Shown one piece after another: positions 38,502 through 50,105 of a stretch of DNA of 64,000 nucleotides. This DNA is from Candidatus Nitrosymbiomonas proteolyticus. Its GTDB lineage: Bacteria > Armatimonadota > Fimbriimonadia > Fimbriimonadales > Fimbriimonadaceae. The number at the start of each line of letters is the position of its first letter. Positions within the stretch are counted from its first letter, which is position 1. Made by a program: the position numbers and the translations under genes. The stretch lies in contig AP021858.1 in the NCBI GenBank assembly GCA_017347465.1, positions 124,001 to 188,000 of the forward strand, given 5' to 3'. The notes below the pieces were generated by a model. That model did not search any database, was not told the DNA's origin, and saw only the letters and a program-made list of their open reading frames with translations.

Positions 38502-41090
38502 TTACGGCTGCATTTCGAACCGAACTTGATCGACGAACACGTCGAAGAAGCTGCTCGCGCGCCTCCAGACGACGATGCCGCGGATCTTGCCGTCAGCGTG
38601 AATCAATTGCGCGAGGTCTGTCGTGACTACGACTTCAACCTGCGCATCTGAGGAGCCGACCGCGCCCAGAGGGAAGGACCGAATCGAGTCGTTCTGACCT
38701 CCGAAGAGGTGCAGCGCCCCCGTGACACCCGACTGCGCCGTCCTAGCTTCGACCCGAATCCGGAGTTCGGAGAGCGAGCCGCCAGGTACGGTGTTCTCGA
38801 ACCTGACCGCTGCGACCGGCGTCATGTCGTTGAACTCGCTCCCGCCCCGCATCCGCCAGTAGCTGTTATTGCTGGTGGGCAAGTCAGAAGCCGACCCGCT
38901 CTGGGTGCTTCCCGCGTATTGGACGACGTTTTCCGGCGCCATCGAGTATTGGACACCGGTCACGACGAGGGCAAAGTCCGCGTCGACCTCCGGGCTTTCG
39001 AGTCGGGCGTCTTGGTTGATCTCTGAGGCGATCACCTGGACAGTCCAGACTCCGCTTTGGGGGCTCGGAACGATGACGCATTCGAGCGTGTCGCGGGTGT
39101 TGGCTGACCCTCCGACCGTCGAAACGTTTCCTGCCGTCAGCCCGTTGTTGCCCCAATACACCGAGCCGTTGGGCGCTGTGACTTTCAGGCTCAGATCGTT
39201 GATCCGATGGATCGTGGCATTGGGGACCTGAGGCGGATCGAGGTACGCCATCGAAGCGACGAACTCGGGTTCACCCGCCGGCACCCACACCCTGTAAGTC
39301 TTGGTCTGCAGGTTCATCAGGGCGTCTCGCTCGTTGATCAGCATCATCTTGTTGCGAGCGTTGTAGATGTTGGTGACGTCCGCGGTCCCCCAACCCTGCT
39401 TGTAGCGCGAGAGGTCAGCGGTCGTTCCCGAAAACGCATAGCGGTACGCTCGGTTGGCGAGCATCGCCTTCACGAGCGGCGCCTTGGGCCGGTTGTCGAA
39501 CACGGTGGCTCCGGTCGCCGGGTTCCCAAAGATGCCGTTATGCCACATCTGGAAGAACAGTCCTGCATACCCCGCCGTCATCGGCGTCGCGGCGCTCGTT
39601 CCTCCAAAGCTCGAAGTGTAGGAAGTGCTGTTGGTCGAGTACGGGCAATAGATCTGGTCGTAGAAAAACGCCAAATCAGGTTTGATGCGTCCGTCGCTGG
39701 CCGGACCGATGCTCGCGCCGCCATTCCACCGGTCGTCGGTGCGAGATTCGGTGCCGAGGTGGTAGACGCCTCCAACGGAGATGATGTTCTTGGCCCAGGC
39801 TTGAGGCCGGGAGCTCTGGTTTCCGGTGTTGCTCTGCGATTGGAAGATCGTGATGTCGTTCCGGAACAGAATATCATCCATCTCTTGGGAAACGGAGTTG
39901 TACAGAGTCGTCAGCGTGCTGCCCCAACTATTGGATTGGAAGCAAGCGTAATAGGGGCCCGAAAGGAGCTGCTGCGTATGCGTGAAACGGTTTCCGAAGG
40001 TTTGGTACCCCGCGAAGATCGGCTGGCCCGCGGGCAACATCCCACGTCCCGTCGGATTGGCGGTCCCCGTGCCGAAGACGATGCCGGTCGTGGGGGTGCC
40101 GTGCGTCATGGAACCGGAGCCCGACGAGTGAAAGAGGATCGGGTTGAGCTGGAAATCTGCGTGCGTCGATAGAACGTTGCCGTCCATGACCTCGCCGCGA
40201 ACGCCCTGACCCGTAAACCCGAGCGTCGTTTGAAGGAAGTTCGCGCCGCCGACCTGCCGAACGACGTTCATGTCGTCTTGGGGCGGGCTCCAGGGGTCGA
40301 CGAAGCAAACCTCATCCATGCTGAGCACCGCGCGCAGTTGCGCCGCGTCGAGCGTCGCCTGCATGAGGTACCCGGGGTCTTCGGTCGGGTGTACCTTTCC
40401 ACCGAGAAGTTCGATCTGGAGCGCGACCGCAGCCTTGTGGTCGGGTCCCCATTTGAACACCGAAATGTAATAGCGCTGGGTAGGCAACTTGCCGGAAACC
40501 AACGCTGACGAAAGCTCGGGCGAGAGCTTCAGCCCAGGGTCGAAGGCCGCTACGGCCCGAACGAAGGGCATCGCCTCGACGAGGGACTTAGCCGCCGCGT
40601 CCATTCGAACGACGTAGGCCTGATGGGGGAAGTACGTCCAGATCGTTCCTCCGGCCTGCCGAATCTCCTGTCGATACTCTTCCAAAGGTTGAGTGACGAA
40701 TTGAACGAAGTACGTTTGGGCTCCGCTCTTCGCTTTGAGCGACGGATGGACCGGCGCTTGAGCCTGGGACGGATCGAACGAGCCGTAAAGGGTCTCGATC
40801 GTGGTCTGTTGCTCGGCGACCCGATCGACGCTCGCGCCGTCCTGGCTGATGGCGAAATAAGCGTTGGCAGACCGCCCCGAACGCTCCGTCCAGCTTGCGA
40901 CCAGAGTGTCGCTCCCTGGAAGCCGAATTGCGTAGGGCGACTCCACCTTAGCGGATGTCACATGAAAGGCGTCGGCGCGGCCGAGCGACAAAACCGAGGC
41001 TTTGCCCGATTGCTGAACGCGCAAGAGATCCGAGTCCGTGGGCGTCATCGCGCCCATTGCCAGCCACGCGGCGGCAAGCAGATGCGTCAT
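38502..41090 (-). CDS. Secreted S8 (subtilisin-like) serine protease
   Basis: A secreted protease of about 862 residues. A signal-like start (MTHLLAAAWLAMGAM) and a long propeptide region (QTYFVQFVTQPLEEYRQEIR; ending EVCFVDPW) precede the catalytic domain. The domain shows a candidate Asp in GVRGEVMDGNVLSTHADF, the His in SMTHGTPTTGIVFG and the Ser in GGTSAATPMTAGYAGLFF. The C-terminal part is beta-rich (LSLKVTAPNGSVYWGNN; GVWTVQVIASEI), like a proprotein-convertase P-domain, then a jelly-roll-like end. The frame opens at 41117, but ATG 41090 starts the signal peptide. It lies next to a carboxypeptidase gene on the same strand. Confidence 0.9.
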   Translation of the reverse strand: MTHLLAAAWLAMGAMTPTDSDLLRVQQSGKASVLSLGRADAFHVTSAKVESPYAIRLPGSDTLVASWTERSGRSANAYFAISQDGASVDRVAEQQTTIETLYGSFDPSQAQAPVHPSLKAKSGAQTYFVQFVTQPLEEYRQEIRQAGGTIWTYFPHQAYVVRMDAAAKSLVEAMPFVRAVAAFDPGLKLSPELSSALVSGKLPTQRYYISVFKWGPDHKAAVALQIELLGGKVHPTEDPGYLMQATLDAAQLRAVLSMDEVCFVDPWSPPQDDMNVVRQVGGANFLQTTLGFTGQGVRGEVMDGNVLSTHADFQLNPILFHSSGSGSMTHGTPTTGIVFGTGTANPTGRGMLPAGQPIFAGYQTFGNRFTHTQQLLSGPYYACFQSNSWGSTLTTLYNSVSQEMDDILFRNDITIFQSQSNTGNQSSRPQAWAKNIISVGGVYHLGTESRTDDRWNGGASIGPASDGRIKPDLAFFYDQIYCPYSTNSTSYTSSFGGTSAATPMTAGYAGLFFQMWHNGIFGNPATGATVFDNRPKAPLVKAMLANRAYRYAFSGTTADLSRYKQGWGTADVTNIYNARNKMMLINERDALMNLQTKTYRVWVPAGEPEFVASMAYLDPPQVPNATIHRINDLSLKVTAPNGSVYWGNNGLTAGNVSTVGGSANTRDTLECVIVPSPQSGVWTVQVIASEINQDARLESPEVDADFALVVTGVQYSMAPENVVQYAGSTQSGSASDLPTSNNSYWRMRGGSEFNDMTPVAAVRFENTVPGGSLSELRIRVEARTAQSGVTGALHLFGGQNDSIRSFPLGAVGSSDAQVEVVVTTDLAQLIHADGKIRGIVVWRRASSFFDVFVDQVRFEMQP

Positions 41091-41201
41091 AGCTGATGTG
41101 TCCTCCCAAGGCGGCAACCCGCCAAGCGGCCTTTTGGCACTTCGACCATTGTACGATATGTTGCCCGGAATCCGGCCCCGATCCCCCGATCACCCGCAGA
41201 A

Positions 41202-42917
41202 TTACTGGGCTTCTAAGTCAAGTTTGACTTGAATTGCGCCCGCCCTTTCGTGGCTGATCCGAACCTCATAGGCGTTCCCTGCGCGCAAGACCCACTCGAA
41301 AACCGCTACATCGTCCGTGGGGTTGCTCGCGCCTCCGAAACCGCTGGCCGAAATGTGATTGCGCCCCACGAGTTGCCCGCTTTCGGATCGAAGGAGCCCG
41401 CTGATGAGCCATTCAGGAGAGGCCGCTCCCTCGCCCGATTCCTCGTGTCCGGCGCACCGAATCTCGGCGACCACGCCTCTGCAGAGCTTGCGATCGGCCG
41501 CGATTCTCGATACGTTCGTGGGGAGCCACCCGGTGTTTTGGACGGCGACTCGAACTCGCGCGGTCGAACCGTCAATGGCCTCGACCCGCGTCTCCCGCAA
41601 CTCCAGCTTGGGCGAGCAAAGCGCCTGCCAAATCACCCAGTCCCCCAACGGCTTCACTTCGCTTTCGAGGAACTGGGGCGGCGGGTTCCGAAAGGCAAAC
41701 GCGAAGTCCCAGCCCCCGATTTCGACCTTGCCGAGTTGGGGGTGTTCGAACTCCTTCCAATCGACATGGCCCTTGCCCTCCAGCTTGTCGTCGGACCACT
41801 TGATGAGTTTCAGGTCATCGTCTTCGGGGTGTTCCCGGAACCAATCGATGTACTTGTAGTCGGTGATGCCCGCTTGGCGTTGAGGCGACCAGATTTCGGT
41901 CGTCCAAGCATAGACCCCGCGGTGTTCGTACATCCAATCGTCGAACACTCCGGTGATCACTTCCTTTGGGTGGTACCGAAACTCGTGGTAGTTGCTGATC
42001 GCGGGATAGCCGGTCATCTCTTTGCCCTTTTCGCCCAGCTTCTGGTACGTCCAGAGGTCCTCAGCGGGGATATCGTCGTCGGGCATTCGACTCGGGGGCC
42101 TCAGATGAACCCCACTAAAGGTATGAAACGTAACGGCTCCGCAGATGTTGGGCCGTTCGCAGATGGCCGACACGGCGGCCCGGATTTCGGGTTCGCTGGT
42201 CGGGAAGGGTCCCGCGCCGTACTGTTCATGCTCCAACCGCCACGCGCTGGGGAAGTTCCGGTTCATGTCCAGACCCTCCTTGACTTTCCTCTGCCGGATC
42301 GTCATTCCGTCCCAGTTGTGGAGCAGCCCTTCGGGAAGAAGTCGATAGAACGTTCCCTCGCGCTCGGTCGGGCCTCGGCGAACCATCAGTCTGGGGTCTG
42401 CCGCGCAGACCCTCCACGCGCCGTTCGGGTCCTGCACCCGCATCGACAGCACCCTACCGTCCCCGTCCAAGTCCTTCTTTTCGATGCCGTAATAGTCGTC
42501 CTCTTCGTAAGGATATGGCCGGGTCGAAGAGCGAATGATTCGCGGCGGGGTTTCGAGGGCCCATTCCGCGCCGTCGGGATTGAGCCTGGGCACCAAGTAA
42601 AACGTTCTCGTGTCGAGCGCGTGGGTGACGTCCGGGATCGAGCCGTATTCTGTGCAGAGCGTATGGATGAGGCGGAGGATGGCCGTGCAAGCGCTGACCT
42701 CGGACGCATGGATGTTTCCGTCGCACCAGAAGGCGGGCTTTTCAGCAGGGGTCCCGGTTGCGCGGTTGGTCAGCGTCACGATCCAGATTTCGCGGCCCTC
42801 ATGGGATTTCCCGATCGTTCCGAGTTCGACCCAATCAGGAAATTCGTCGCGATAGGCTTCCAGAGCGCGCGTCAGTTCCTCGTAGCGAATGTACTTGTCG
42901 AAGGGGACTTGAGGCAT
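41202..42917 (-). CDS. M14-family zinc carboxypeptidase
   Basis: A 571-residue metallocarboxypeptidase. The zinc motif HxxE is NIHASE, the third ligand His is in TFHTFSGVHLRPP and the catalytic Glu is in AWTTEIWSPQ. The substrate-binding Arg region is LVPRLNPDGAEWAL, and the prodomain-like start is FDKYIRYEELTRALEAYRDEF. The C-terminal 120 residues are beta-rich (VRVAVQNTGWLPTNVS). There is no visible signal peptide. The gene lies 111 bp before the S8 protease start on the same strand, so the two may work on the same peptides, though they need not share a compartment. Confidence 0.92.
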   Translation of the reverse strand: MPQVPFDKYIRYEELTRALEAYRDEFPDWVELGTIGKSHEGREIWIVTLTNRATGTPAEKPAFWCDGNIHASEVSACTAILRLIHTLCTEYGSIPDVTHALDTRTFYLVPRLNPDGAEWALETPPRIIRSSTRPYPYEEDDYYGIEKKDLDGDGRVLSMRVQDPNGAWRVCAADPRLMVRRGPTEREGTFYRLLPEGLLHNWDGMTIRQRKVKEGLDMNRNFPSAWRLEHEQYGAGPFPTSEPEIRAAVSAICERPNICGAVTFHTFSGVHLRPPSRMPDDDIPAEDLWTYQKLGEKGKEMTGYPAISNYHEFRYHPKEVITGVFDDWMYEHRGVYAWTTEIWSPQRQAGITDYKYIDWFREHPEDDDLKLIKWSDDKLEGKGHVDWKEFEHPQLGKVEIGGWDFAFAFRNPPPQFLESEVKPLGDWVIWQALCSPKLELRETRVEAIDGSTARVRVAVQNTGWLPTNVSRIAADRKLCRGVVAEIRCAGHEESGEGAASPEWLISGLLRSESGQLVGRNHISASGFGGASNPTDDVAVFEWVLRAGNAYEVRISHERAGAIQVKLDLEAQ

Positions 42918-43022
42918 GAAGCGAGGTTACCCAGTCGCAGAAAACTGGGCAGGTTTCTATAAATGATGATAAAGTATGAATTGGGCGCCTTCCGACGAGG
43001 ACGCCCAGGAGGGAAGGAATCG

Positions 43023-44582
43023 ATGCTGAGTTTGTTGTTGGCAGGGACGATGTTCGCGGTCGACGTGCTCCCGGACATGGGCGTTTGGGGGGATTATCTG
43101 GGCGAGGCGTACATCGGAACGACCTCATCGAGCGAGCCGCCCGCCGGTCGTCGCGCCATTCGCATTTCGACGGCAACCGTCAATTACGGACCCGGCCGCT
43201 TGGAGCTTCGCGGCGGGGAAATCGTTGGCAGCCAGCAGCGCGTCTACCAGAGGGTCTTTCGCGACGACGGCGGTTGGTACGACCGCGAGGCCGGTTGGTT
43301 CGTATACCATGCGTCTCACGGACACATTCACTTCAACGACTGGACCGTCTTTCACCTTCGGGAACTGTTGCCCGATGGGACGCCCGGTGAGATTGTGCGA
43401 ACGGGAGACAAAACGAGCTTCTGCATCCTCGAACTTCTCACCTACAACAGCTCGCTGCCCGGCTACGGCACACCGCCGTCCTACAGCAGTTGTGGTCAGA
43501 TTCAGGGTCTCCGGCCCGGTCGCGCGGACATTTACAGTAGCGGCCTGACGGATCAATACATCGACATTGTAGGCATGCCAGACGGCGATTACTGGCTTGA
43601 GGCCGAGGTGGACCCGGACAATCTGGTCCTGGAGGCCGACGAAACGAACAACGTCGCCGGGATCCCGTTCACCATCGGCCCGGTTCCGGCCACGGTCGAT
43701 GATGCCTACGAGAACAACGATTCGAGAGCGCAAGTGGACGCCTTGCCGGAGGGCGCGCCGAATAGCGCCAATTTGGGATTGGTACTCACGCCGAAGGTCA
43801 TTCACGACCTCTCGATGAACGACGACGACTGGTTCAAATTGAGGCTCCACGCTTCCGAAGAGGGCGATTACATCCGAATCGCTTCGGGCTACCTAAGGAC
43901 CGGCAACCTCAACCTGCAACTCCTCAACGCGGCGGGATCTGTCATTCAGACCTCCACGAACAGCCACAACGTTGAGACGATCAACTTGAGGGGGCTCCCC
44001 GCAGGCACGTACTACGTCAGGGTGTACAACTCGACCAGCACCAGCAACCCGAATTACCGGCTTGAGGTCGTGCCCGGAGCGAACGCGCCCCCAACCGTGG
44101 TCGTTACCGAACCCTCGGTTACGATGTACGTCGAGTATGCGGAAGAGACGTTCCCCGTTCACTGGAACGGCTCGGACCCGGATGGCGACCCGAAGTGGGT
44201 GTCGCTGTTCCTCACCCCCAGCAAGGACGATCCGAGCGGAGCGATCGAGATTCCGGGATACCAGAACCTTTACGGTTACATGGGCCAGGTGAACGTGAAC
44301 ACGGTCACGCTTCCGATTGGGAAGTGGTACGTGATGGTTCAGGCGACCGACGGGGGCGCCTACTCCGAGTCTTGGGCGCCGGCGAGCGTGACGTTGTTCA
44401 TCCACGGCGACCTCAACTTGGATGGGGCGCTCACGATGGCCGATTTCGATCTGCTTAGGCCGTGGGTCGAAGACGCTGAGGTGGTGATTCTGCCGCCCGG
44501 GTGGCATCGGATCGCCGACATGAACCACGACGACGTGGTCGATCACCAGGACTTGGAGATGCTCCGCGCCCTCATTGGGTAG
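43023..44582 (+). CDS. Lysyl oxidase-domain protein with PPC and dockerin-like domains
   Basis: A 519-residue exported protein. The N-terminal lysyl oxidase domain (about 45-220) has the copper-binding His96-x2-His99-x-His101-x-His103. Lys130 (TGDKTSFCILE) and Tyr171 (GRADIYSSGL) align with the two residues forming the LTQ cofactor in animal lysyl oxidase, and QYIDI...EADETNNV follows as in animal enzymes. A PPC-like domain (about 226-350) and an Ig-like region come next. Two dockerin-like calcium loops (GDLNLDGALTMADFDLL, ADMNHDDVVDHQDLEML) end it. GGAGGGAAGG before ATG 43023 sets the start over 42963. It probably oxidises lysines in surface proteins. Confidence 0.88.
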   Translation: MLSLLLAGTMFAVDVLPDMGVWGDYLGEAYIGTTSSSEPPAGRRAIRISTATVNYGPGRLELRGGEIVGSQQRVYQRVFRDDGGWYDREAGWFVYHASHGHIHFNDWTVFHLRELLPDGTPGEIVRTGDKTSFCILELLTYNSSLPGYGTPPSYSSCGQIQGLRPGRADIYSSGLTDQYIDIVGMPDGDYWLEAEVDPDNLVLEADETNNVAGIPFTIGPVPATVDDAYENNDSRAQVDALPEGAPNSANLGLVLTPKVIHDLSMNDDDWFKLRLHASEEGDYIRIASGYLRTGNLNLQLLNAAGSVIQTSTNSHNVETINLRGLPAGTYYVRVYNSTSTSNPNYRLEVVPGANAPPTVVVTEPSVTMYVEYAEETFPVHWNGSDPDGDPKWVSLFLTPSKDDPSGAIEIPGYQNLYGYMGQVNVNTVTLPIGKWYVMVQATDGGAYSESWAPASVTLFIHGDLNLDGALTMADFDLLRPWVEDAEVVILPPGWHRIADMNHDDVVDHQDLEMLRALIG

Positions 44583-44704: not shown

Positions 44705-45184
44705 ATGGCGGAGCGCCCGAGTTGGGACGACTACTTTATGCAGATCGCGCACCTGGTCAAGACCAGGGCGACGTGCCCCAGGCGGCAGGTCGGTGCGGTC
44801 ATCGTTCGTGAAAGACGAATCCTCGCCACAGGATATAACGGCGCGCCGCGAGGGCTGCAACACTGCCCGGACGGCGGTCCCGAGCATGACTGGCCTCGGG
44901 GCTGCATGAAAGCTGGGCACTGCATTCGGTCACTCCACGCCGAGCAGAACGCCCTCCTGCAAGCTGCGATGATCGGGATTGCGTGCCAAGGCGCGACGAT
45001 GTACGTTACTTGCCAGCCGTGCAACACCTGCGCGAAGATGATCATCAATGCGGGCATCGAGCGGGTGATCTATGAAGGCGACTATCCGGATGACTTCTCG
45101 CTGGAGTTGTTCCGCGAGTCCAAGCTTCAGGTCCATGTGTTCAGCGAAGGTCAATTGAAGGACGTCGATCTGGTGGTTCGATGA
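44705..45184 (+). CDS. dCMP deaminase family protein (ComEB-like)
   Basis: A 159-residue zinc deaminase that probably converts dCMP to dUMP, feeding thymidylate synthesis. The zinc-site His and catalytic Glu are in SLHAEQNALLQ, and the two Cys ligands are in VTCQPCNTCAKMI. A family insert (GPEHDWPRGCMKAGHCIR) with extra Cys/His residues is present, as in dCMP deaminases. It overlaps the next gene by 4 bp (ATGA). The -10 box CATAAT lies nine bases before the ATG. Confidence 0.92.
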   Translation: MAERPSWDDYFMQIAHLVKTRATCPRRQVGAVIVRERRILATGYNGAPRGLQHCPDGGPEHDWPRGCMKAGHCIRSLHAEQNALLQAAMIGIACQGATMYVTCQPCNTCAKMIINAGIERVIYEGDYPDDFSLELFRESKLQVHVFSEGQLKDVDLVVR

Positions 45185-46275
45185 TCTCGCCGCTGCACAC
45201 TATGCTCGCCGCCGGAGGTGGGTTCCTCGAGGGTTACCGGGCGCCCCTTCTGACCCTTGTGATTGCGCTCTTCGTGAGTTGGCTGAGCACACCGTTCGTT
45301 CGAAAGGTCGCCATTCAAAGAGGGGTCATGGACGACCCGACCCAAGATGACCGCCGCATCCACACTGCGCCCGTGCCACGCTGGGGCGGTCTTGCGATTT
45401 TTGGCGCGATCGTCGTCGCGCTCGCGGTCGTCCTGCCACTTGCCTACCCTCACAACCCTTACCCCAGCTACCTATTGGGCATGGCGGGGCTGGGGGCGCT
45501 GATCGTTGTGATGGGGGCGCTCGACGACTTGTACCAGTTCCCTGCTTCGGTTCAGGCGCTCTTCCTGCTAGCGATCGGCCTTGCGGTGCAGTTTCTCAAC
45601 GGAGGCGCGGGACGGGTCCAAATCGCCGGCATCGAGACGCCCCTGCTCGCGGGTGGGGGAACTTGGGTCGATTTTGGTTGGCTGGCGTTCCCGATCACCG
45701 CCATCTACATCTTCGTGATCACCAAGACGATGGACACGATCGACGGGATGGATGGGCTCGCGGCGGGGATCGCGGCCATCGCAGGCGCAACCCTCTCCGT
45801 CATGGCCACGCAAAAGGTTTTTCAGGTCCTTGCGCTCAACCCTGAGTCCGCTACCATCGGTTCGGTGGTGGGAGAGCAGCCGCGCGTGGCCCTGATTGCG
45901 GCCGCGATTGCGGGGGCTTCTCTCGGGTTTCTCAAGCACAACTATAACCCTGCCAAGATTTTCATGGGCACGGGCGGAGCGCAACTCCTTGGGTTCCTGC
46001 TTGCGTGCATCAGCATCGTTGGCGCGTGGAAAACGGCGGCTGCGGTGGCGCTGTTCGTACCGATTTTCGTGTTCGGAGTGCCGATCATCGACGCAGTTAT
46101 CGTCGTGATTCGCCGCATTCTCAACAAGAGCCCGATCACTCAGGCGGACAAACGCCATCTCCACCACTCCCTTCTCGAAAAAGGGCTTTCCCAGCGGCAG
46201 GCCGTCTGGGTTCTCTACCTAGCGGCTCTCACTCTGAGCGGAGCGATCCTCGTGGTGGTCAAGCTGTATGGGTAA
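45181..46275 (+). CDS. wecA: UDP-GlcNAc:undecaprenyl-phosphate GlcNAc-1-phosphate transferase (MraY/WecA/TagO family)
   Basis: A 364-residue polytopic inner-membrane enzyme that starts lipid-linked glycan synthesis on undecaprenyl phosphate. Family motifs are DRRIHTAPVPRWGGLAIF, GALDDLYQFPASVQ, TMDTIDGMDGLAAG and NPAKIFMGTGGAQLLGF. The cytoplasmic loop ends in KRHLHHSLLEKGLSQRQAV (HLHH is typical of WecA/TagO, not MraY). About ten membrane helices are visible. It overlaps the genes on both sides. With wecB and uppP downstream, it suggests a pathway for a surface polysaccharide or teichoic-like polymer. Confidence 0.92.
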   Translation: MISPLHTMLAAGGGFLEGYRAPLLTLVIALFVSWLSTPFVRKVAIQRGVMDDPTQDDRRIHTAPVPRWGGLAIFGAIVVALAVVLPLAYPHNPYPSYLLGMAGLGALIVVMGALDDLYQFPASVQALFLLAIGLAVQFLNGGAGRVQIAGIETPLLAGGGTWVDFGWLAFPITAIYIFVITKTMDTIDGMDGLAAGIAAIAGATLSVMATQKVFQVLALNPESATIGSVVGEQPRVALIAAAIAGASLGFLKHNYNPAKIFMGTGGAQLLGFLLACISIVGAWKTAAAVALFVPIFVFGVPIIDAVIVVIRRILNKSPITQADKRHLHHSLLEKGLSQRQAVWVLYLAALTLSGAILVVVKLYG

Positions 46276-47398
46276 GCCCAAGGTGATGTTCGTGGTCGGG
46301 ACCCGGCCCGACGCGATCAAGACCGCCCCTGTGGTCTTGGAGTTTCGAAAGCACGAACGGGTCGAGACGGTCTTGGTATCCACGGGGCAACACCGTGAGA
46401 TGCTCGCGCAGGCCCTCGAAGCGTTCGGGTTGCGGCCAGCCGTGGACCTCGCCGTGATGCGACACGAGCAAACGCTCGCCGAACTGACGGCAAGGGTTCT
46501 TGCGGGCTTGGACGAAGTGATCGTCGACGTTGCGCCCGACTACATCCTCGCCCAGGGAGACACGACCACTACGTTTTGCGCGAGCCTGGCAGCGTTCTAC
46601 CGAAGGATCCCCTACGGCCATATCGAAGCCGGTCTTCGCACTGAAACGGTCTCCAACCCGTTCCCTGAAGAGTTCAATCGGCGAACGACGAGCCTCGTTG
46701 CCAAGCACCATTTCGCCCCGACGCGATGGGCGGCGAACAACCTGCTCCGAGAAGGATATTGTCAGGAGTCGATCTTTGTTACCGGAAACACCGGGATCGA
46801 CGCAGTCCTCGATGTGGCGGCGCGAGGCGAGCAAACGTGGTACCCGGACTTTGAGGGAAGGGTGGTGCTACTCACGACGCACCGGCGAGAGAATTGGGGC
46901 GCGCCGCAAGACCGGATCGCTCGCGCCGCCCGGACGATCGTGGACGAGGTTCCGGACACCCTGCTTGTTGTGCCCATGCACCGAAACCCCCAGGTGCGCG
47001 AGTCCCTCAAGCGCCGACTGGGGGGACACGACCGGGTGCAGCTCATCGAGCCTCCGGACTACAGCGAGTTCGTCAAGTTGATGCAGCGGAGCTACCTGAT
47101 CTTGACGGACTCCGGTGGGGTTCAGGAAGAAGCGCCCGCGTTTGGCGTGCCCGTACTGGTTTTGAGGGACACCACAGAGCGGCCCGAAGGGGTAGAGGCA
47201 GGATCCGCCAGGTTGGTGGGAACGGTCGAAGCGTCGATCCTCACAGCGAGCCGTGAACTCCTCTCCGACCCCGAATCGCGGGCCAAGATGGCAAAGACGC
47301 GAAGCCCTTATGGAGACGGCCGCGCGTCCCAGCGAATCCGTAGCGTGGTGCTGCCGTTCTTGGGCATCGAGTGTGAGCCGGAGAGTCCATGGGGTTAG
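46268..47398 (+). CDS. wecB: Non-hydrolysing UDP-N-acetylglucosamine 2-epimerase
   Basis: A 376-residue cytoplasmic enzyme interconverting UDP-GlcNAc and UDP-ManNAc. It has KVMFVVGTRPDAIKTAPVV, VLVSTGQHREML, AQGDTTTTFCASLAAFY, HIEAGLRTE, NPFPEEFNRR and the nucleotide-binding end LTDSGGVQEEAPAFGVPVLV. It overlaps wecA by 8 bp and uppP by 10 bp. ManNAc from this enzyme commonly goes into enterobacterial-type or teichoic linkage glycans, which fits the neighbouring WecA-type transferase. Confidence 0.95.
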   Translation: MGKPKVMFVVGTRPDAIKTAPVVLEFRKHERVETVLVSTGQHREMLAQALEAFGLRPAVDLAVMRHEQTLAELTARVLAGLDEVIVDVAPDYILAQGDTTTTFCASLAAFYRRIPYGHIEAGLRTETVSNPFPEEFNRRTTSLVAKHHFAPTRWAANNLLREGYCQESIFVTGNTGIDAVLDVAARGEQTWYPDFEGRVVLLTTHRRENWGAPQDRIARAARTIVDEVPDTLLVVPMHRNPQVRESLKRRLGGHDRVQLIEPPDYSEFVKLMQRSYLILTDSGGVQEEAPAFGVPVLVLRDTTERPEGVEAGSARLVGTVEASILTASRELLSDPESRAKMAKTRSPYGDGRASQRIRSVVLPFLGIECEPESPWG

Positions 47399-48264
47399 TC
47401 GAGGCGATTGCCCTCGGCATTGTGCAAGGACTTACTGAGTTCTTGCCGATTTCAAGCACGGCCCACATCCGAATCGTTCCTTCGCTCGTCGGTTGGCCCG
47501 ATCCGGGCGCAGCCTTCACGGCGGTCATCCAATTGGGAACCATCGTGGCCGTTATCGTATATTTTTGGGGCGATCTTTGTAGATTCTTTCTCGGATGGCT
47601 TGCGGGAATGCGGGATCCCCACCGCCGCTCGTCGCTCGAGTGGCGAATGGGATGGGCGATCGTCGTGGGAACCATCCCCATAGCGATCTTCGGGCTGCTC
47701 TTCAAGGATTCCATCGAAGGGTCGCTTCGCTCGCTGTACGTGATCGCCATCGCTCTGATCGCCCTTGGACTCCTCATGATGGTCGCCGAGATCGTGGGAC
47801 GAAGGGATCGTTCGCTGGAGGGCGTGCGACTTCGCGACGGGTTGTGGGTAGGCTTTTGGCAGGCACTGGCACTGATCCCTGGCGCGAGTCGAAGCGGAAC
47901 GACGATTACGGGGGGCCTTTTTGCGGGGCTCGACCGGCCGACTGCCGCCCGATTCTCGTTCCTGCTGTCGGTGCCTTCGATCGTGCTCGCGGCGCTCTTC
48001 AACCTGGCAGAGCACAAAGACCTGTTTCTCACCGGCAAAGCGGAGCTCTTTGCGCCTTCGCTCGTGGCCTCGCTCGCCGCTCTCATCAGCGGGTATGCCT
48101 CGATCGCCTTCCTCCTTCGATTCCTGCAAAAGCACGGCACGTGGGTTTTTGTCGCCTACCGGGTCGTGCTCGGGGGTTTGATTCTCGTGCTTCTCGCCAA
48201 CGGCAGCCTCGAACCCCTCGATTCGGCGTCGGAAGCACAGGCCGAAGTCGCGGCTACCCGGTAA
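47389..48264 (+). CDS. uppP: Undecaprenyl-diphosphatase (BacA/UppP)
   Basis: A 291-residue membrane enzyme that recycles undecaprenyl diphosphate to the monophosphate carrier. Both signature regions are present: GLTEFLPISSTAHIRIV (with Ala-His-Ile-Arg instead of the common Gly-His-Leu) and LIPGASRSGTTITGGLFAG. About eight hydrophobic segments fit the family. It supplies the carrier used by the upstream WecA-type enzyme and by peptidoglycan synthesis. The wecB stop lies inside its first codons. Confidence 0.95.
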   Translation: MGLVEAIALGIVQGLTEFLPISSTAHIRIVPSLVGWPDPGAAFTAVIQLGTIVAVIVYFWGDLCRFFLGWLAGMRDPHRRSSLEWRMGWAIVVGTIPIAIFGLLFKDSIEGSLRSLYVIAIALIALGLLMMVAEIVGRRDRSLEGVRLRDGLWVGFWQALALIPGASRSGTTITGGLFAGLDRPTAARFSFLLSVPSIVLAALFNLAEHKDLFLTGKAELFAPSLVASLAALISGYASIAFLLRFLQKHGTWVFVAYRVVLGGLILVLLANGSLEPLDSASEAQAEVAATR

Positions 48265-48971: not shown

Positions 48972-49811
48972 TTACTTGCGTCGGCGTCGGATCAGAGCCG
49001 CTGCGCCAAGGCCAAGCGCCACCATCGTTGCGGGCTCAGGTACTGGGCTGCCGTAGACGATGAACGGGAAGTCCTGCACCACAGCGCCAGCCGTGGGAGG
49101 GTTGCCCGGATCTTCAGCGTCTTGCCAACTCGTTGCGGCTTGCAGGAACTGCCGCCCGTTGAACCCGGCGATCCCGCGGCCCGAGGCTACGAGCGCAGGA
49201 GCCCAGGGGCCGCTGCTCAGCGAGCCGCCGGTCTGCCAATCGAGCCAGTACGTGCCCGCCGTCAAGACCACTCCGCCAAGGTTTGCGCTGTTGCGATAAA
49301 CGGGTCTCGTGGTGTCCGGCGGGATGCCGAGCCCCGCAGGGTGCGTCGAACTCGCTGTTCGATAGATTCCTGCAAACGTGGAGCTTGAGAGCACATTCGT
49401 GGTGGTGTCGCCCCAGACGACCGAGCTACCGGAGTCGCCAGGCCGGCCGTTCCAGATTCGGAGGCTCAGGAAGTTCATCGACGAACCAGTCGCGCTGCCG
49501 CCAGTCTGATAGGCGAAGAAATCGATCGAATCGACGGTCCAGAAGGCATCACCGATGGCGAAGTCGTCGGCAACGCGGTTCCCAGCGGACTGCTGGTGCC
49601 CAAACCCAAGGATCGCGTTGGCGTTGTCGCCATCGTTCGCGAGCTCGCTCCATTGGGTTCCCGAAGGCGCGCCCGTGCCGTCACCGGCGGTCGCTCCAGT
49701 TTCGAGACCGATCGTCGACAGCCCCCAGTTCTCGCCGTTGCTGTAGAGCTGGATCGAAAAAGCGCTGCCTGCAAATACCACCGACAAACAAACAAGTCCA
49801 AACTTTCGCAT
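48972..49811 (-). CDS. PEP-CTERM sorting-domain surface protein
   Basis: A 279-residue exported protein. It has a signal peptide (MRKFGLVCLSVVFAGSAFS), a Gly/Ser/Thr-rich beta-type body and a PEP-CTERM tail VPEPATMVALGLGAAALIRRRRK (signal motif, membrane segment, basic end). This tail directs processing by an exosortase and surface or matrix display. The exosortase is not in the window. ATG 49811 has TTGGAGAA upstream; the frame opens earlier at 49841. The body is unlike the three PEP-CTERM proteins at 57-60 kb. Confidence 0.9.
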   Translation of the reverse strand: MRKFGLVCLSVVFAGSAFSIQLYSNGENWGLSTIGLETGATAGDGTGAPSGTQWSELANDGDNANAILGFGHQQSAGNRVADDFAIGDAFWTVDSIDFFAYQTGGSATGSSMNFLSLRIWNGRPGDSGSSVVWGDTTTNVLSSSTFAGIYRTASSTHPAGLGIPPDTTRPVYRNSANLGGVVLTAGTYWLDWQTGGSLSSGPWAPALVASGRGIAGFNGRQFLQAATSWQDAEDPGNPPTAGAVVQDFPFIVYGSPVPEPATMVALGLGAAALIRRRRK

Positions 49812-50105
49812 AGAGTTCTCCAAGAATTGGCTGTAATTCACCCGATCGCCATTCAGGCGTTAGACGCAAGTCTGAACGCGAACGTGCATTGATTGTATTG
49901 AAAAAAACAGCCATTGCGGCCTTCCATGGGCAGGTTCCGGTATTTTTGCTGGTCACAATCCGAGGAAATCCAGAGAGAATCTGGCAATTGTCCGTGGAGC
50001 GGCTTGGCAAGGGGGAAAGTCGGGCGCGTTTGGTGGGGCGGGTCGCGCGGCGGGCAAACAATAAAAGACTTCTAAAACGCCCGAAAAGTCGCACGAAAAA
50101 TCCCC

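Follow-up and report, generated by a model that had tools for sequence, protein, structure and literature searches.

The gene at 43023–44582 (+ strand) of the window, the whole stretch of 64,000 nucleotides analysed here, encodes a protein of 519 amino acids with a lysyl oxidase (LOX) fold, and its possession of a complete predicted copper/LTQ site was supported by sequence, profile and fold. Three further domains follow, in the order LOX, PPC, fibronectin-like domain and calcium-loop tail, and by its sequence the protein is a member of a little-described multidomain bacterial LOX group common to several phyla. Considering its sequence, its predicted structure and the analogy with characterized relatives, we think it rather likely that the product is a secreted LOX-family copper/LTQ enzyme, which would oxidise extracellular primary amines while its accessory domains hold it near the surface or the substrate. 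LOX enzymes are best known for hardening the animal matrix, where the related animal enzyme cross-links collagen. A bacterial LOX that is conserved across phyla in multidomain form, is probably secreted and has an intact predicted site and a collagenase-type accessory domain offers a defined protein for testing bacterial surface cross-linking by lysine oxidation.

Gene, start codon and probable secretion

The host genome (Armatimonadota) is a single contig of 2.81 Mb that is 99% complete, and the product of 43023–44582 was its only match to PF01186 (n = 1). The ATG at 43023 is preceded by AGGGAAGGAATCG, and residue numbers counted from it agree with those of the first-pass annotation. An alternative in-frame start lies upstream at 42963; the start at 43023 was preferred because of its better ribosome-binding stretch and its agreement with the relatives. 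Residues 1–13 (43023–43061, +) make up a short hydrophobic N-terminus, which reads as a probable secretion signal, and similar hydrophobic stretches begin the relatives too, ahead of a conserved DLLPDI. The gene product is thus probably secreted, judging from this N-terminus, although the signal starting at 43023 is short and contains no basic residue, which counts against a secreted oxidase.

The lysyl oxidase domain and its predicted copper/LTQ site

The first-pass annotation regarded the protein as a lysyl oxidase, and its identity was borne out by PF01186, whose match of 44.3 bits (E = 2e-11) clears the cut-off of 20.4, and by human LOXL2, the best solved relative in both sequence and fold. 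The PF01186 match, the LOXL2 profile match and a model of the LOX domain alone place the catalytic domain at residues 14–222 (43062–43688, +). LOXL2 (5ze3_A) was aligned to this domain by phmmer at 4.3e-6 and by the LOX family profile at 3.3e-16, with the same residue pairing. In both alignments, H96, H99, H101 and H103 (43308–43331, +) paired with the four histidines of WHDCHRHYH, K130 (43410–43412, +) with the lysine of GHKASFC, and Y171 (43533–43535, +) with the tyrosine of CWDMY. The LOXL2 residues are presumably H623/626/628/630, K653 and Y689, with an offset of 317. All six residues named in the first-pass annotation therefore fall on LOXL2 copper or LTQ positions, the histidines forming the predicted copper motif and K130 and Y171 being the predicted LTQ lysine and tyrosine; its remark that K130 and Y171 align without gaps in their local segments was also correct, the gaps falling between the segments.

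The six catalytic residues, together with C134 (43422–43424) and C157 (43491–43493), a candidate disulfide pair (43422–43493, +), were invariant in all 32 rows of an alignment covering Armatimonadota, Planctomycetota, Zixibacteria, Eisenbacteria and Myxococcota. The AlphaFold models of the whole protein (from 32 rows) and of the LOX domain alone had pLDDT values of 88.6 and 92.0, respectively, and LOXL2 ranked first against both in the fold comparison (Foldseek, VIA-align). It superposed on the whole model over 174 residues at 2.6 Å (Z 15.7), and on the LOX-only model 5ze3_A did so over 174 residues at 2.5 Å (Z 16.2).

A survey by Grau-Bove et al. in 2015 reported, in the parts used here, that the first copper-site histidine, the position of H96, is absent from bacteria (PMC4448552). 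This statement fails for bacteria at large, because that histidine was present in 32/32 aligned members and in six relatives from other branches (L056, L065, L067, L069, L073 and L074). It was absent from three proteins, two of Streptomyces clavuligerus and one of Gemmatirosa (L062–L064). Since its replacement barely changes copper binding or activity, according to the same parts of the survey (PMC4448552), the first histidine should be read as a marker and not as a key to function.

Distribution and phylogeny

LOX was found in 10 of 61 genomes (the host and its relatives), in 21 of 291 Armatimonadota genomes, 20 of them in the same order as the host, and in 9 of the 198 genomes from the class to which the Planctomycetota record L026 belongs; the patchiness within Armatimonadota (10/61, 21/291) counts against the secreted-oxidase reading. 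The LOX domain of CP054189.1 (Chthonomonadaceae bacterium H1_ARM1), the closest named record found, was identical to that of the window protein, and most other near records are labelled Fimbriimonadaceae or Chthonomonas (Armatimonadota). A scan of species genomes yielded 33 loci, belonging to Armatimonadota and Planctomycetota, with one each from Eisenbacteria, Zixibacteria, Myxococcales and an unclassified source. The 32-row alignment comprised the window protein and 31 of these loci, L012 (identical LOX domain) and L043 (contig end) being dropped. In a 51-row tree, 38 rows formed one clade (98/94), which split into 20 rows from Armatimonadota (92/91) and 18 that are mostly from Planctomycetota (98/91); because of long branches, the places of L056, human LOXL2 and L064 are unsure.

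Three LOX-like open frames from the class of L026 (L070, L071 and L072; 302, 451 and 418 residues, respectively), with PEP-CTERM-like ends, formed a clade of their own (100/98). They retain the LTQ lysine and tyrosine and have lost copper histidines (H99 is F in 3/3) and both cysteines, so that by sequence they appear to be dead enzymes. As such relatives show that loss is possible, retention of the copper histidines in 32/32 members is informative. A short LOX in genome G313 (L065; 301-residue open frame) has two dockerin-like loops in front and the four-histidine motif YHPCHDHYHF. It gave the top PF01186 score of the search over the class of L026 (6.3e-34), and its partner in the tree was human LOXL2 (97/83, on long branches).

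Accessory domains behind the catalytic domain

The PPC-like and dockerin-like repeats described in the first-pass annotation were recovered, and a third domain between them had been missed. The PPC domain occupies residues 223–353 (43689–44081, +) and matched PF04151 at 27.4 bits, above the cut-off of 25.9. The closest folds to residues 227–351 were the collagen-binding domains of collagenases (5iku: Z 12.6, 106 residues, 2.1 Å), of the clostridial type, which themselves belong to the PPC type. The missed domain, at residues 353–460 (44079–44402, +), is predicted to be a fibronectin-like or CbhA-type domain, with fold matches to CelAly B1 (9kvu: Z 11.4, 93 residues, 2.5 Å) and to the fibronectin-like module of CbhA (3pdd: Z 10.4, 89 residues, 2.0 Å). 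The order of LOX, PPC, fibronectin-like domain and calcium tail is seen again in other members from Armatimonadota and Planctomycetota, and in a small number of further phyla; at E ≤ 0.05, LOX was matched in 32, PPC in 29, CARDB in 27 and Dockerin_1 in 17 of the 32 aligned members.

Two models of T9SS sorting tails, PF18962 (28.7 bits) and TIGR04183 (25.9 bits), also exceeded their cut-offs, at residues 284–340. Because these matches sit within the PPC domain and not at the C-terminus, a T9SS sorting tail was rejected; annotation pipelines may mislabel PPC-bearing proteins as T9SS-sorted.

The calcium-loop tail and the search for a cohesin

Residues 461–516 (44403–44570, +) form a double calcium-loop, dockerin-like tail, in which the sequence and the AlphaFold model both indicate two loop-helix units. 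PF00404 (Dockerin_1) matched this tail at 15.4 bits, under its cut-off of 22.9, and scored better in other members (best E 1.4e-8 among the 17 matched). The tail profile found both dockerins (2y3n, 1.9e-12) and proteins of the EF-hand type (8.7e-15), so the tail is best called a calcium-loop pair, with no finer class. The wording ‘dockerin-like’ was thus fair, whereas plain ‘dockerin’ would not have been, given the score below the cut-off.

The first-pass annotation further suggested that this repeat could attach to a cohesin elsewhere and called for a genome search, which found none. No cohesin was matched in the host genome even at E ≤ 10, a level that a very divergent cohesin could still escape, and a cohesin partner in the host was therefore rejected. 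Nor did any cohesin exceed the cut-off in the 10 genomes searched from the order that carry LOX, the host included; one of them (G040) held a sub-threshold fragment of 16.9 bits. Outside the order, 2 of 15 LOX-bearing genomes had a cohesin over the cut-off, an Eisenbacteria and a Zixibacteria genome, of which the Zixibacteria genome alone also carries a dockerin-type LOX tail, and weaker matches occurred in G304. As no cohesin was found in the host, or over the cut-off in the genomes searched from its order, and the tail is the sole dockerin-like stretch found in the host genome, the docking idea is unsupported here.

Conservation was compared in alignments of PPC (29 of the 32 rows, omitting the near-duplicates L021, L025 and L042) and of the tail (25 of the 32 rows, omitting L030 and L044, which have other C-termini, and L025, L035, L038, L039 and L042, which are near-duplicates or of odd length). 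Identity to the window protein was 46–71% for LOX, 31–53% for PPC and 15–34% for the tail, which was the least conserved part; so variable a sequence is not expected of a tail that has to fit a fixed lock-and-key partner. If the tail were a true dockerin by which the enzyme joins a cohesin scaffold, this would account for the two calcium-loop units and for the match of the tail profile to cellulosomal dockerins, and a complex of peptidases joined by cohesin and dockerin has been hypothesised, in the part of the source used, for the planctomycete family Nemodlikiaceae (PMC6461901), so that docking is conceivable in some members of the group. For the window protein, however, the sub-cut-off PF00404 score, the cohesin counts (none in the host and, over the cut-off, 0/10 in the genomes searched from the order and 2/15 elsewhere) and the divergence of the tail relative to LOX make this explanation extremely improbable.

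Gene neighbourhood and proposed function

Next to the LOX gene, in divergent orientation, lies a gene for an M14 zinc carboxypeptidase (41202–42917, −; PF00246, 154.7 bits), followed by one for an S8 subtilase (38502–41117, −; PF00082, 50.6 bits). By tblastn, with some flanks shorter than 6 kb, M14 turned up close to LOX at 4 of the 33 loci (L012, L014, L016 and L019) and S8 at 7 of 33 (L012, L016, L017, L019, L026, L028 and L034). S8 adjoins LOX in two phyla, including three Planctomycetota loci whose S8 proteins are just 26–28% identical to that of the window, and the host genome has five S8 genes. As a clue to function, the peptidase neighbourhood is a lead only. Downstream, at 45181–48264, are genes that we take, from reading by eye, to be UDP-GlcNAc transferase-like, UDP-GlcNAc 2-epimerase-like and UppP-like, and the product of 48972–49841 (−) presumably ends in a PEP-CTERM-like segment, likewise read by eye. 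A cyclophilin-like gene directly precedes LOX in L016, L017 and L019 (in L017 by similarity alone).

The enzyme may work as follows. Copper bound by the histidines would make K130 and Y171 self-process to LTQ. The LTQ enzyme would then convert primary amines to aldehydes, most probably those on lysines of proteins at the surface or outside the cell, giving off ammonia and hydrogen peroxide, and protein cross-links may form from these aldehydes. The three accessory modules (PPC, fibronectin-like and calcium-loop) would take up calcium in their folds and hold the enzyme close to the surface or the substrate, and the tail would not serve as a cellulosome-type dockerin plug. Amine oxidation gains support from the LOX of the archaeon Haloterrigena turkmenica, an example of an active prokaryotic LOX that depends on copper: in the part of the report used here, it oxidised both lysine polymers and peptides when supplied with copper and was inhibited by BAPN (PMC6452851). 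On the other side, LOX activity was not detectable in its host (PMC6452851). Cross-linking of surface or matrix proteins by the window enzyme is possible. Collagen-like proteins (PF01391) occurred in 9 of 61 genomes, the host having none; with 2 of 10 LOX-bearing and 7 of 51 LOX-lacking genomes positive, there was no association, and a collagen-like substrate was rejected.

The archaeal enzyme also prefers several small amines, such as taurine and histamine, to free lysine; its specificity is relaxed, and its authors suggest nitrogen supply, as far as the part used here goes (PMC6452851). Its example, the S8 and M14 genes adjoining LOX in the window and S8 near LOX in three Planctomycetota loci would suit a nutritional amine oxidase that gains ammonia from the small amines or peptides which the adjoining secreted peptidases release and has no role in cross-linking. 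However, S8 or M14 neighbours occur in some loci only, and three accessory domains with a calcium tail better fit a held enzyme with a large substrate, so that we judge a nutritional role unlikely, if still worth weighing. The archaeal LOX further oxidises amikacin, capreomycin and polymyxin, according to the same part of the report (PMC6452851), as would be expected of an oxidase with a protective role, the inactivation of cationic antibiotics or peptides of the aminoglycoside or polymyxin kind. Protection would, however, leave the accessory domains unexplained, and a Pfam search of ten neighbour proteins revealed none for resistance or defence; we hold it to be quite improbable. Oxidation of extracellular amines by a secreted, locally held enzyme is thus the reading that we prefer.

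A possible origin of the LOX domain from CARDB

We tentatively suggest, giving it somewhat less than an even chance, that the catalytic domain of LOX proteins, animal ones among them, is in origin a bacterial adhesion sandwich of the CARDB type carrying an inserted copper/LTQ segment. As part of the same tentative reading, the multidomain LOX proteins of Planctomycetota and Armatimonadota would keep the insertion joint visible, and the family would also have shed the copper site again, as in the LOX-like proteins that lack copper histidines. CARDB PF07705 matched the protein at 29.3 bits (cut-off 22.7), covering only profile positions 73–99 of 101, at the C-terminus of LOX, and the LOX profile found 2kl6 (0.0065) and 3idu (0.0066) after LOXL2. 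Against the LOX-only model, CARDB domains took fold ranks 2–4 (Z 8.2, 7.7 and 7.6) in alignments of 106–110 residues, near the whole domain length. In hhalign comparisons with a CARDB set from the order's loci (17 of 19 pieces; L106, with stops, and L107, out of register, left out), LOX reached 94.3%, LOX with the insert removed 95.2% and the insert alone 0.5%, reversed controls giving at most 1.0%. Against such an origin, the C-terminal 35 residues hold the signal (96.5%) while the N-terminal half alone reached 0.4%, the fibronectin-like domain reached 59% against a smaller CARDB set, and Ig-like domains of glycosidases tied at Z 7.6. Insertion into a CARDB domain is therefore a fair hypothesis and not a result; if true, the link would tell where the LOX catalytic domain came from.

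Comparison with known systems

Bacterial LOX as such is already known and has been in print since 2015; the 2015 survey, in the parts used here, lists five bacterial clades, Armatimonadota and Planctomycetota not being among them (PMC4448552). In the open PMC literature, which does not cover subscription journals, nothing joined lysyl oxidase with Armatimonadetes or contained ‘bacterial lysyl oxidase’, none of the matches listed joined LOX to Planctomycetes, Phycisphaerae or Armatimonadota, and lysyl oxidase together with dockerin or with CARDB appeared, judging from the listings, on unrelated subjects only.

The window LOX shares with human LOXL2 (5ze3) the fold, the four copper-site histidines, the LTQ lysine and tyrosine and the first cysteine after the LTQ lysine, at about 20–25% identity, and LOXL2 has more cysteines. 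LOXL2 carries SRCR domains in front of its catalytic domain, whereas the window protein has PPC, fibronectin-like and calcium-loop domains behind LOX. With the LOX of H. turkmenica it has in common a prokaryotic origin and the conserved catalytic core; that enzyme differs in its 308 amino acids and its N-terminal autoinhibitory part, and comparable C-terminal domains are not described in the part of the report used here (PMC6452851). The bacterial LOX proteins of the 2015 survey and those of S. clavuligerus (L062 and L063) likewise share PF01186, three copper histidines and the LTQ pair, but those of the survey are, in the parts used, mostly single-domain and reported to lack the first histidine, which is found in 32/32 members here (PMC4448552).

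Among non-oxidases, the collagen-binding domains of clostridial collagenases (ColG s3b and ColH; 5iku, 1nqd and 3jqw) have the fold predicted for residues 227–351 (Z about 12, 2.1–2.3 Å), and at 16–21% identity the likeness is one of predicted fold. The CARDB domain of PF1109 (3idu and 2kl6) resembles the window LOX in sequence in its C-terminal strand pair and E..E.NN motif, and in fold over the whole sandwich, and differs from it in being without the copper/LTQ insertion.
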